This document shows positions 7,081 to 10,136 of a stretch of DNA of 11,966 nt, piece after piece (positions within the stretch are counted from its first letter, which is position 1; each line of letters begins with the position of its first letter). Origin of the DNA: a bacterium (lineage in GTDB: Bacteria > CAIJMQ01 > JAADFP01); NCBI GenBank assembly GCA_027021085.1, contig JALUVB010000095.1, positions 1 to 11,966 on the forward strand, written 5' to 3'. A program made the translations under genes and the position numbers. The notes under the pieces were generated by a model, which saw nothing but the letters and a program-made list of their open reading frames with translations, was not told where the DNA came from and did no database searches.

Positions 7081-9210
7081 ATGAAGGAACATGACCACCA
7101 TACGGGTGAAAAAATGCCCGAGATGGAGCACGATATGGACATGCACGCAGGACACCAGATGCATGAGGGGATGGAACATGGGAAAGAGATGAAACACGAG
7201 AAAGGGATGGAACATCACACTATGCCCAATGGAGTTCACATGGCCCACGGAGACCACCATGCTCACATGGTAGCAGACTACAGGAAACGGTTCTGGATAT
7301 GCCTGGCTATCACCATACCCATTCTCCTTCTCTCTCCCATGATTCAGGGATTACTGGGAATAAGGGAAACCCTCAAGTTTACGGGTGACTTATACCTCTT
7401 GTTCCTGCTTTCCTCCCTGGTTTTCTTCTATGGAGGCTATCCGTTCCTTAAGGGTATTTTTGTAGAAATAAAAACAAAAAAAATAGGCATGATGACCCTT
7501 ATCGCAGTAGCCATCACCACTGCCTATGTATACAGCAGTGCAGTGGTATTTGGGCTGAAGGGTTCCATATTTTTCTGGGAGCTGGCAACTCTGGTGGACA
7601 TCATGCTTTTGGGGCACTGGATAGAGATGAAATCAATTATGGGAGCCTCAAAGGCCCTGGAAGCATTGGCAAAGCTTATGCCTTCAGATGCCCACAAACT
7701 TATGCCTGATGGAAGTGTACAAGATGTACCCTTAAATGAACTAACCGTGGGAGACAAGGTTCTGGTAAAACCCGGGGAGAAAATCCCTGCTGACGGGATA
7801 GTAGTAGAAGGAGAGACCTCTGTTAATGAAGCCATGCTCACCGGTGAATCTAACCCGGTACCCAAGAAGAAAGGTGACCAGGTTACCGGAGGAGCCGTTA
7901 ACGGGGAAGGTTCGATTACCATGGAGGTTAAGAAAACAGGGGAAGATTCTTTTATCTCACAGGTAATAAAACTGGTCAAAGAAGCCCAGGAAAGCAAATC
8001 AAGAACCCAGGACTTAGCAAACCGGGCTGCCTTCTGGCTTACTGTCATAGCCCTGGTAGGAGGGGTTGTAACACTTTTTGTCTGGTTGGCTGTGATGAGC
8101 AAAGATCTCGCCTTTGCCCTGGAGAGAACAGTAACCGTAATGGTTATTACCTGTCCCCATGCCCTTGGACTCGCCGTGCCCCTGGTAGTGGCTGTTTCCA
8201 CAGCCCTTTCCGCCAGAAACGGCCTGCTCATCAGAAACCGTATAGCCTTTGAAAAGGCAAGAAATATCCAGGCAATAATTTTTGATAAGACGGGAACTTT
8301 AACCGAGGGTAAATTCGGTGTCACTGACACCATCATTTTTTCAGACGATATAGGTGAAAAAGACCTTTTAAAATATGCTGCATCAGTAGAAGCCCATTCC
8401 GAGCACCCCATTGCCAAAGGAATTGTTTCCTCCTCCCAGGAAACCTTCCCGGTTAAAGAATTCAAAGCCATTCCGGGCAAGGGAGCAGAAGGAGAAGTAA
8501 ACGGGAAAGAGGTGAAAGTGGTAAGCCCGGGATACCTGAAAGAAAAGAAAATTTCACTTACCGAAGAACGCATCGAAAAAATTGCTTCCCAGGGCAAGAC
8601 CATAGTATTTGTCATAATAGACGGTAAATTGAAAGGCGCCATTGCCCTGGCAGATATTATAAGGCCAGAATCCAAGAAGGCAATTTCATTACTTAAAAAA
8701 ATGGGCATCCAGTGCATGATGCTTACCGGAGACAATAAGCAGGTGGCCAAGTGGGTATCGGATGAAATAGGCCTTGATGAGTATTTTGCGGAGGTTTTGC
8801 CGCAGGAAAAATCAGAAAAGGTAAAAGAGGTACAAGCAAGAGGCTTGACCGTAGCCATGACGGGTGATGGGGTAAACGATGCTCCTGCCCTTGTCCAGGC
8901 AGATGTAGGTATTGCTATCGGAGCAGGCACCGATGTGGCAGTGGAAAGTGCAGATATTATCCTGGTAAGAAGCAATCCCCTGGATGCCGTAGCCATTATA
9001 GGGCTTGCACGGGCTACATATAAAAAGATGATACAAAACCTTGCCTGGGCAACAGGCTATAACGCCTTTGCCATTCCTCTGGCGGCAGGTGTACTCTATA
9101 AAGCAGGCATACTCCTTACCCCTGCCATGGGAGCAGCATTGATGGCCTTAAGTACAGTGGTTGTAGCCATCAATGCCAGGTTCCTCAAGGTAGTTAAACA
9201 GGAAGTATAA
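7081..9210 (+). CDS. copB: CopB-type P1B-ATPase (CPH motif), copper export pump
   Basis: This is a 709-residue heavy-metal P-type ATPase, probably exporting copper across the inner membrane. In place of an HMA domain, residues 1-63 form a His/Met-rich metal-binding tail with 16 His and 12 Met. Membrane helices are near 71-89, 103-124, 136-156, 161-180, 317-338, 350-372, 656-677 and 681-702. Transport motif CPH (358-360) replaces the CPC of CopA and marks the P1B-3 group. TM7-8 carry YNAFAIPLAAG and STVVVAINA, typical of CopB. Catalytic motifs are TGES (254-257), DKTGT (phosphorylated D402), SEHP (H442) and TGDGVNDAP (594-602). A strong AAAGGAGG (7065-7072) lies 8 nt before ATG. No CsoR, CopY, CueR-like regulator or copper chaperone is adjacent. 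Silver, or Cu(II) rather than Cu(I), are possible substrates. Confidence 0.93.
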   Translation: MKEHDHHTGEKMPEMEHDMDMHAGHQMHEGMEHGKEMKHEKGMEHHTMPNGVHMAHGDHHAHMVADYRKRFWICLAITIPILLLSPMIQGLLGIRETLKFTGDLYLLFLLSSLVFFYGGYPFLKGIFVEIKTKKIGMMTLIAVAITTAYVYSSAVVFGLKGSIFFWELATLVDIMLLGHWIEMKSIMGASKALEALAKLMPSDAHKLMPDGSVQDVPLNELTVGDKVLVKPGEKIPADGIVVEGETSVNEAMLTGESNPVPKKKGDQVTGGAVNGEGSITMEVKKTGEDSFISQVIKLVKEAQESKSRTQDLANRAAFWLTVIALVGGVVTLFVWLAVMSKDLAFALERTVTVMVITCPHALGLAVPLVVAVSTALSARNGLLIRNRIAFEKARNIQAIIFDKTGTLTEGKFGVTDTIIFSDDIGEKDLLKYAASVEAHSEHPIAKGIVSSSQETFPVKEFKAIPGKGAEGEVNGKEVKVVSPGYLKEKKISLTEERIEKIASQGKTIVFVIIDGKLKGAIALADIIRPESKKAISLLKKMGIQCMMLTGDNKQVAKWVSDEIGLDEYFAEVLPQEKSEKVKEVQARGLTVAMTGDGVNDAPALVQADVGIAIGAGTDVAVESADIILVRSNPLDAVAIIGLARATYKKMIQNLAWATGYNAFAIPLAAGVLYKAGILLTPAMGAALMALSTVVVAINARFLKVVKQEV

Positions 9211-9216
9211 CATGGA

Positions 9217-9244
9217 GACCGTAGACCTTAGACTATAGACATTA
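9217..9244 (-). repeat. Heptamer repeat tract, reverse orientation (4 units)
   Basis: Six bases after the copB stop, four 7-mers (GACCGTA, GACCTTA, GACTATA, GACATTA) follow without a gap. Their reverse complement is the TAGTCTA / AAGTCTA family seen in + orientation further on, so this tract is an inverted member of the same repeat class. Confidence 0.6.
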
Positions 9245-9276
9245 ACACCATGTGCAACTTTTAAAGTTAACTGTCC

Positions 9277-9299
9277 CTCCCCCGATTTTATCGGGGGAG
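9277..9299 (+). terminator. Strong hairpin downstream of copB, terminator-like but without T-run
   Basis: CTCCCCCGAT (9277-9286) pairs perfectly with ATCGGGGGAG (9290-9299) around the loop TTT, giving a 10-bp GC-rich stem 66 nt after the copB stop. The following bases (AACGGGCAGG) contain no T-run, so a classic rho-independent terminator is not shown. It may act as a 3' mRNA stabiliser or be a dispersed hairpin repeat; CCCGAC-GCAT-GTCGGG at 9726-9741 has a similar CCCCGA / TCGGGG core. Confidence 0.4.
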
Positions 9300-9340
9300 A
9301 ACGGGCAGGTCAGGACAACTCACTCTTTACTGTCTTCTCC

Positions 9341-9444
9341 TGGATGCCTGCTTTTGCAGGCATGATAGGTGAGGAGGATGTTTTGTATTGTGGTTTCACC
9401 CTGCGTTTATCCGGCTCCGTCATTCCTGCGCAAGCAGGTATCCA
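9341..9444. repeat. REPIN-like element: two REP palindromes in inverted orientation
   Basis: The 104-bp segment begins TGGATGCCTGC and ends GCAGGTATCCA, inverted copies of each other apart from one base. Each end is itself a hairpin: ATGCCTGC/GCAGGCAT (9344-9351 / 9356-9363, loop TTTT) and CCTGC/GCAGG (9425-9429 / 9434-9438, loop GCAA). The right half in its native direction reads GTCATTCCTGCGCAAGCAGG, the well-known bacterial dispersed repeat often mistranslated as VIPAQAGI. Paired REPs of this kind (REPINs/BIMEs) are mobilised in other genomes by RAYT (TnpA-REP) transposases; none is in this window. An open frame at 9344-9679 is a repeat translation, not a gene. Confidence 0.7.
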
Positions 9445-9453
9445 TTTCCCCCG

Positions 9454-9565
9454 CTACTATCTACTCACTACCCACTACTTTCTCACCATTCACCGTTCAC
9501 TGCTTACTATTGTCTTGTTCTTTCTCTTCCCAGTCTACAGTCTAAAGTCTATGGTCTATAGTCTT
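9454..9565 (+). repeat. Heptamer repeat tract 1 (16 phased 7-mers)
   Basis: From 9454 to 9565 the sequence divides into sixteen 7-mers without an indel. It runs from CTACTNN units (9454-9481) through CTCACCA, TTCACCG, TTCACTG and CTTACTA (9482-9509), three degenerate T/C-rich units (9510-9530), then CAGTCTA, CAGTCTA, AAGTCTA, TGGTCTA and TAGTCTT (9531-9565). It resembles the short tandemly repeated repetitive (STRR) heptamers described in cyanobacteria, although the unit sequences differ. Confidence 0.7.
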
Positions 9566-9575
9566 TCCTGTCCCC

Positions 9576-9722
9576 TTCACTACTCACTACTAACTACTCG
9601 CTACCCGCTACTTTCTCACCATTCACTGTTCACTGCTTACTATTATCTTGTCTGTTTCTCTTCCCAGTCTACAGTCTAAAGTCCAAGAGTTGTGAGTTAT
9701 GAGTTTCCAGTTACCAGTTCCC
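9576..9722 (+). repeat. Heptamer repeat tract 2 (21 phased 7-mers)
   Basis: The tract 9576-9722 keeps a 7-nt phase over 147 nt while its units change. First come TTCACTA, CTCACTA, CTAACTA, CTCGCTA and CCCGCTA. An ACTGTTC-type group follows (9618-9645), then a degenerate T/C-rich part, then GTCTACA and GTCTAAA, and last five AGTTNNN units (9688-9722). The part 9608-9684 is a near copy of 9475-9551 in tract 1. Nothing in it codes for protein. Confidence 0.7.
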
Positions 9723-9725
9723 TGT

Positions 9726-9741
9726 CCCGACGCATGTCGGG
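9726..9741. repeat. Small GC-rich hairpin in repeat spacer
   Basis: CCCGAC (9726-9731) pairs with GTCGGG (9736-9741) around GCAT. It is flanked by CACCTGTTCCCCCGCCTG. No T-run follows. It lies at the end of heptamer tract 2 and looks like another dispersed hairpin. Confidence 0.5.
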
Positions 9742-9784
9742 GCACCTGTTCCCCCGCCTGTGTTCTGTATCCTCTCTCCTCATC

Positions 9785-9812
9785 TAAAGTCTCAAGTCTA
9801 TAGTCTAAAGTC
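9785..9812 (+). repeat. Heptamer repeat tract 3 (4 units)
   Basis: Four adjoining 7-mers, TAAAGTC, TCAAGTC, TATAGTC and TAAAGTC, belong to the AGTCTA family in + orientation. The tract ends 5 nt before the solo REP palindrome at 9818. Confidence 0.6.
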
Positions 9813-9817
9813 TTGCG

Positions 9818-9846
9818 TGGATGCCTGCTTTCGCAGGCATGACAGG
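9818..9846 (+). repeat. Solo REP palindrome
   Basis: TGGATGCCTGC-TTTC-GCAGGCATGACAGG is the same element as the left half of the pair at 9341, differing mainly in the loop (TTTC against TTTT). The stem ATGCCTGC/GCAGGCAT (9821-9828 / 9833-9840) is perfect. The open frame 9821-10042 beginning in it (MPAFAGMTG) is a repeat translation and is not a gene. Confidence 0.65.
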
Positions 9847-9917
9847 TAGGGCTGGTTGTTTGTTATTCCTGCAAAATCTATCCCCTTTACCGAGAAACCA
9901 GGATACCAGGGAAAAAA

Positions 9918-9987
9918 TTCACTGTTCACTGCTTACTGTTCACTATTTTCCCAGTCTACAGTCTAAAGTCTATGGTCTAAGGTCTAA
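9918..9987 (+). repeat. Heptamer repeat tract 4 (10 phased 7-mers)
   Basis: Ten consecutive 7-mers: TTCACTG twice, CTTACTG, TTCACTA, TTTTCCC, then AGTCTAC, AGTCTAA, AGTCTAT and GGTCTAA twice. The order TTCACTG group, T/C spacer, AGTCTA group is the same as in tracts 1 and 2. From 9988 to about 10060 I see only short unstructured sequence before the PEPCK promoter. Confidence 0.7.
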
Positions 9988-10066
9988 AATGTGCTACTCA
10001 CTACTTTCAAAGTCACCAGCCCTGACTAATTATTCCCGGTAGAAAGGCTGCATTGAACAATTTATT

Positions 10067-10094
10067 TTGATTTATACCCATATATTGGTATAAT
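10067..10094 (+). promoter_or_regulatory. Sigma70-type promoter for the PEPCK gene
   Basis: TTGATT (10067-10072) and a perfect TATAAT (10089-10094) are separated by 16 nt, and TG at 10086-10087 gives an extended -10. Transcription would start near 10100-10102, leaving a leader of about 36 nt that holds the ribosome binding site AAAGGAAGG (10121-10129). It lies at the right border of the repeat spacer. Confidence 0.7.
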
Positions 10095-10136
10095 AGAGGC
10101 CTCAGTTAAAATAAAAACAGAAAGGAAGGTAAGTGT

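Follow-up and report, generated by a model that had tools for sequence, protein, structure and literature searches.

The intergenic spacer between a copper-type P-type ATPase gene (7081-9210, + strand; ORF calls and family TIGR01511) and a GTP-PEPCK gene (10137 onward, + strand; ORF calls and family NF003253) carries tracts of seven-nucleotide units whose sequence changes along the way, and the question that it raises is whether these heptads share one phase and were added seven nucleotides at a time, or whether they arrived by other means. The window, by which we mean the whole stretch of 11,966 nucleotides analysed, holds this spacer at 9211-10136 (926 bp), which proved to be a mosaic of composite-repeat modules. 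Three stretches reported in a first-pass annotation were present at 9454-9565, 9576-9722 and 9918-9987, with lengths of 16, 21 and 10 times 7 nucleotides. Autocorrelation at lag 7 was compared with dinucleotide shuffles, and 9454-9987 gave 282 self-matches against 142.3 expected, far above the shuffles (z = 14.5); the z values were 7.8, 8.8 and 7.9 for the three tracts in the same order and 12.2 for the whole spacer, and in 9454-9987 lags of 14 and 21 gave an excess as well. Coding sequence of the window, sampled as four control regions, displayed no lag-7 signal, which is limited to the spacer. The excess over shuffled sequence, together with the flat coding controls, confirmed that the heptads are real; as set out below, they lie between genes throughout the genome and belong to a type of repeat familiar from cyanobacteria. 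An Rfam search of the window matched no known RNA. Elsewhere in the window, an 18-nt tandem repeat was observed at 7170-7215, in the part of the ATPase gene that encodes its histidine/methionine-rich N-terminus.

The annotation had further proposed that a single 7-nt phase runs through all unit families and even through the T/C-rich parts. Any stretch of 7n bases can be cut into 7-mers without an indel, so that such a cut is in itself no evidence of phase. When the phase was measured on the unit cores, it changed at the junctions: the AGT of the first AGTCTA followed the ACT of the last TTCACTG at a distance of 26 nt in the first tract, 27 nt in the second and 11 nt in the third (5, 6 and 4 mod 7), and AGTCCAAG|AGTTGTG in the second tract is an 8-nt step, the AGTC-to-AGTT junction slipping by one base. 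With the recognisable units of the spacer masked, lag-7 identity was 133/460 (0.29), like that at other lags, and the T/C-rich parts thus do not keep the phase. An excess of lag-7 signal outside the visible units had been chosen beforehand as the test of the phase claim; none was found, and the claim is refuted. In the genome sample the step inside one unit family was 7 in almost every case, and the TTCACTG-to-AGTCTA junctions had phase 4 (mod 7) in 46 instances, 3 in 36 and others in 15 (n=97), with AGTCTA-to-AGTT junctions at +1 in 25/36. A few dominant junction phases are as expected from shared descent of the junctions and do not point to a phase rule. Phase conservation across unit families was thus ruled out by the junction phases and the masking together. 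A clearer case of phase-keeping drift than the window, and one matching the description in the annotation, is a 170-nt tract of about 24 heptads in another genome of the same class (L184:1456-1625; G003 C8), in which the 7-nt phase is kept while the units pass from TGCTAAT by way of TTTAGTC and CTATAGT to TTGATAA.

The spacer was then read as a series of modules, all on the + strand unless stated. A D module of four AGTCTAN heptads lies in the opposite orientation at 9215-9240 (- strand), and is followed at 9341-9367 by a CGTC-type REP palindrome (P) with an 8-nt stem and a 4-nt loop, recognised by sequence, consensus and the published REP definition (PMC3733652), and at 9418-9444 on the - strand by another with its CGTC tag intact, recognised by sequence and the same definition. 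The first tract consists of an A module of four CTACTCR-type heptads (9454-9481), a B module of four TTCACTG-type heptads (9482-9509), a T/C-rich linker that lacks lag-7 signal and shifts the phase (9510-9530), and a D module of five AGTCTAN heptads, the modal number in this genome (9531-9565). Second A (9576-9614) and B (9615-9642) modules, a second T/C-rich linker (9643-9664) and a second D module of three units (9665-9685) follow, the CTACTTTCTCACCATTCAC junction upstream of this linker recurring at 10 places in the genome sample. An E module of five AGTTGTG/AGTTATG-type heptads (9688-9722) joins D with a phase slip of +1. Beyond it lie a short palindrome, CCCGACGCATGTCGGGG (9726-9742, without assigned strand), which was found beside other copies too, and a D module variant, TCTAAAGTCTCAAGTCTATAGTCTAAAGTCT (9783-9813), which is identical at four other loci (L010, L030, L032 and L033). 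A further P, recognised by sequence, consensus, fold and the REP definition, occupies 9818-9844 as the first half of a head-to-head pair, and its degenerate inverted partner (TGTTATTCCTGCAAAATCTATCC, from the consensus of about 40 copies) occupies 9861-9883. An F module of ACCAGGAT octad-like repeats (9890-9912), a third B module of four units (9918-9945), the short linker TTTTCCC (9946-9952), a third full D module of five units (9953-9987) and a remnant of an A module recognised by sequence (9994-10007) complete the series. At 9344-9679 (+ strand) REP and heptads are spanned by an open frame of 111 aa with no NCBIfam match; it is very likely spurious, staying open because the A, B and D modules are without stop codons on the + strand, and frames of this sort through heptad boxes may be mis-annotated as genes.

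Uniqueness of the tract had been named beforehand as the other outcome that would refute the observation; the tracts proved not to be unique to the spacer and are widespread in the genome. The spacer had 96 matches within its own genome, and AGTCTANRGTCTA occurred at 286 exact sites in the 1.93 Mb, against 0 for the reversed pattern used as control. The three-unit pattern AGTCTANRGTCTANRGTCTA occurred at 202 sites here and at 46 in a genome of the same genus (G001), with 0-2 sites in each of five other genomes of the same class or family. Period 7 was by far the commonest tandem period, with 163 segments at lag 7 versus 3-7 at lags 6, 8 and 9, and 161/163 tracts lay outside genes predicted with a simple gene finder. 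Units in the genome sample included AGTCTAC, AGTGAAC, AGTCTAA, AGTAAAT and others. By the same gene finder, tracts were present in 14/22 convergent, 33/168 tandem and 12/40 divergent spacers. The sample was enriched for contigs with matches, which biases both the densities and the excess in convergent spacers. The draft genome comprises 307 contigs, and many contig ends fall in these repeats.

Iterated profile searches with the P-partner-F core (9814-9917) returned 94 matches in 782 kb of the genome, flanked by the same heptad modules. With the copies placed in one orientation, a single chain was seen: D or A heptads, the CGTC-type REP, a spacer, the degenerate inverted partner, the octads of F, the TTCACTG heptads of B, a CCC linker, and D or A. 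The core consensus, TGGATGCCTGCTTTCGCAGGCATGACA...TGTCATTCCTGCGAAATCTATCC, is a head-to-head pair in which the partner stem is degenerate. The order is polar, running from P through partner, F, B and CCC linker to D (usually of five units) and/or A, with E often after D, and P preceded F in 14 cases versus 0 in reverse, F preceded B in 37 versus 1 and B preceded D in 62 versus 7. All modules shared a single orientation in 82 of the 92 spacers that held at least two module types, and 1068 module sites had the majority orientation versus 16 against it; the ten mixed spacers had one to three stray modules each, mostly D or the near-symmetric P. The modules thus recur across the genome in a set order, nearly always co-oriented within a spacer and almost never in genes. 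Replication-strand polarity was considered as the cause of co-orientation and is disfavoured, because adjacent spacers on one contig are often opposite in orientation. Co-orientation may come from block copying, or from loss of inverted copies that would form hairpins. As the modules occur also in partial combinations, the composite may be a grammar and not one unit. The recurrence, order and co-orientation of the modules make it probable that the tract consists of successive copies of a composite intergenic repeat, dispersed and polar, which has spread by the copying of blocks.

The sister species G001 offered an opportunity to assess turnover at the same locus. PEPCK is 93% identical between the two, and DNA identity is 81-89% in most aligned blocks. 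The orthologous spacer measures about 210 bp against 926 bp here (111 versus 823 bp between aligned anchors), and holds only a short minus-strand D array and an E remnant. That D array, near the ATPase gene, has 5 units in G001 (L210, about 2940-2975) and 4 in the window (9215-9240). Other orthologous spacers differed by hundreds of bases in either direction, while the few alignable pairs of orthologous boxes were equal or one unit apart, as in L038 versus L232, and in some the content was shifted by one unit with the total unchanged. The G001 spacers carry in addition an octad family, CTTACTCA, and the heptad families GTATCCT, TTTGTGA and GGCGTRA (for example L205:10116-10150, L217:16549-16583 and L222:286-326). 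The annotation had suggested one ancient array, expanded and drifted in place with its 7-nt phase kept. The strong lag-7 signal is what such an array would give; however, the phase is broken across families, the families are separate modules with a set order and module-specific junctions, most of the content is absent from the orthologous spacer, and the same modules lie in dozens of unrelated spacers. We consider this origin scarcely credible.

Among the long simple repeats of many bacterial genomes, heptamers are the most frequent, and polymerase slippage is their usual explanation. The arrays could accordingly be ordinary long simple sequence repeats (LSSRs), each made and extended in place by 7-nt slippage and blurred by point mutations. 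The predominance of period 7 over other periods and the intergenic location agree with LSSRs, as do the orthologous boxes that differ by exactly one unit (9215-9240 versus L210; L038 versus L232), and the passages of PMC4679880 and PMC4692102 that draw on Mrazek 2007 ascribe the bacterial excess of heptamers to slippage. Slippage in place predicts that neighbouring units are the most similar. In contrast, for D, B and A in both species, neighbouring units were less similar than units at the same position of other arrays. Identical neighbours in the source genome numbered 17/351 against 38.1 expected for D, 26/317 against 42.0 for B and 7/183 against 20.0 for A, and in the sister genome 6/166 against 14.2, 2/70 against 5.7 and 1/73 against 6.4, respectively, a depletion of 1.6-6 fold below the permutation expectation in three families and two species. 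Identical or most-alike neighbours, as expected of LSSRs, were thus lacking in both genomes. AGTCTAN arrays of other phyla, which served as the positive control for the neighbour test, displayed the reverse, with 189/338 identical neighbours versus 114.3 expected, although the near-perfect three-unit pattern used to find them favours neighbours that are alike. In addition, the number of D units is nearly fixed (exactly five in 78/128 arrays) and the unit variant depends on ordinal position, and slippage alone leaves the module order and co-orientation unexplained. Slippage in place is thus an unlikely account of these arrays, and the depletion agrees better with block copying in which perfect doublets are lost. 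As for the suggested mechanism adding 7 nt at a time, single-unit differences between orthologs do occur; since neighbours are depleted in identity, however, its contribution is at most secondary. Avoidance of identical neighbours may also have a cause other than slippage loss.

A functional role was also weighed, in which each box is an array of putative 7-nt-spaced sites for a nucleoid protein, a transposase or an RNA-binding regulator, with its size and variety under selection; on this reading it is added that each of A, B and D has stop codons in all frames of one strand. The modal D box of five and the conserved cores with free positions are in keeping with it, and so is the bias of orientation relative to genes. 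In tandem spacers modules ran opposite to the genes more often than in the same direction (D 20 versus 5, B 23 versus 8, A 22 versus 10), and of 48 D or A modules lying closest to the 3' end of a gene, 37 were antisense. However, a spacer with modules in one sister species need not have them in the other, and the frequent opposite orientation of neighbouring spacers on one contig speaks against it as well. We regard selected binding arrays as improbable, more so than slippage.

In the reading that we favour, the dispersed composite repeat, new copies would arise by copying of whole blocks, through recombination or transposition among co-oriented copies, and the 7-nt step inside each box would be inherited with the block. 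Single 7-nt units would be gained and lost slowly, and perfect duplicates side by side would disappear, through slippage or under selection, so that the arrays that remain are pseudo-tandem. As an enzyme that might move the element, a REP-associated tyrosine transposase is no more than a candidate. Two Y1_Tnp matches were found in the source genome (L202 and L201). The first includes a RAYT-like gene (L202:626-1303, - strand; G000 C45) that scored 62.9 bits with REP_Tyr_transpos, below the NCBIfam cut-off of 80, and has one CGTC-type palindrome at about 228, about 400 bp away; L201 has none. No transposase gene was recognised when ORFs of at least 95 aa in nine long module-rich spacers were inspected by eye. 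A bolder reading, which we put forward as tentative and on balance doubtful, is that of a new class of dispersed element, a polar cassette anchored by a REP pair, with a near-fixed number of heptads and no identical neighbours, tandem in look and unlike a microsatellite in behaviour. Were it true, the scarcity of identical neighbours would record either the purging of perfect doublets or selection in favour of a binding array with diverse units.

Similar arrays were also sought in other genomes. Among the matches listed, AGTCTAN arrays occurred in scattered genomes of many phyla, the record titles naming Bacteroidota, Deltaproteobacteria, Elusimicrobia, Omnitrophota, Nitrospinota, Cyanobacteria and Chloroflexi. 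Those of other phyla (L069-L148) adjoin other heptad families (ATTGAAG, TTTGTGA, AGTTAGC and AGTCGTC) and consist of near-perfect copies, unlike the window. Carriage by phages was rejected as an explanation, only 21 stretches having been found among 2.9 million viral contigs. Among 241 bacterial genomes, taken as one or two per family, AGT-anchored arrays had 7-nt spacing in 70 and 8-nt spacing in 25, and reversed TGA controls, by hand counts from the table, gave about 77 and about 27. As these controls match AGT, a spacing of 7 is generally preferred to one of 8, in accordance with the excess of heptamers in the literature (PMC4679880, PMC4692102), and an AGT core as a domain-wide rule is rejected. 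Five distant genomes (G024, G104, G111, G176 and G100) hold many AGT-anchored octads with the other five bases variable (283 sites in G024), and TGA-anchored controls are scarce in them; in some lineages 8-nt spacing seems to be preferred.

In this genus, heptad boxes numbering in the hundreds have the opposite neighbour statistic and ride on a polar composite with a REP pair. Period 7 is thereby separated from growth by slippage, and the comparison of neighbour identity with same-position identity is a test usable on any heptamer-rich genome.

Among known systems, the P module fits the CGTC-1 REPs in having a CGTC/TGTC tag, an 8-bp stem beginning with AT, a 4-nt loop and a CCA tail, by sequence and fold: the complement of 9818-9844 reads TGTC-ATGCCTGC-GAAA-GCAGGCAT-CCA, and 9418-9444 reads CGTC-ATTCCTGC-GCAA-GCAGGTAT-CCA. 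It forms a head-to-head dimer as CGTC-1 REPs do, though the partner stem is degenerate. The likeness to the CGTC-tagged REPs of Di Nocera et al. 2013 (PMC3733652) thus covers tag, stem, loop, tail, head-to-head pairing and a location mostly outside genes; the second half is degenerate here, however, and the pair is one link of a fixed chain that also contains octads and heptads, whereas according to that paper REPs mostly occur apart from other repeats. For CGTC REPs, the absence of a dedicated transposase has been reported (PMC3733652). REPINs and BIMEs, which RAYT transposases mobilise, are described in PMC3116915 and PMC2817692 as mosaics likewise built around inverted REP pairs, and heptad and octad modules are not part of that description; a REP-associated tyrosine transposase-like gene is present in the source genome, but no transposase flanked by the element was found in it. 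Intergenic heptamers are known as TAACTGA in Beggiatoaceae, Cyanobacteria and Bacteroidetes (MacGregor 2015, PMC4679880) and as GGGNATC in Xanthomonas and Nostoc (PMC4692102). With these, the Mrazek 2007 repeats and the cyanobacterial STRRs, our arrays share 7-nt units, intergenic and dispersed location, indels in 7-nt steps and, in some species, the mixing of several families in one spacer. In contrast, those heptamers are described as perfect or near-perfect tandem copies, whereas our boxes avoid identical neighbours and are nearly constant in size, and the modules follow a polar order and lean to gene 3' ends rather than start codons. The unit spectrum of the source genome did not show TAACTGA in direct repeats, nor did the tracts lie just upstream of start codons as in Beggiatoaceae, convergent spacers having the highest share in the repeat-enriched sample. 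The tandem heptanucleotide elements of Geobacter metallireducens, 49 dispersed copies of four GGACCGG heptads each (PMC2700814), are likewise dispersed with a small fixed number of heptads, but differ in sequence, lie inside genes too and are not described within a REP-anchored polar composite. Thus while the parts are of known kinds, CGTC REPs and intergenic heptamers, their combination and the avoidance of identical neighbours appear to be new.
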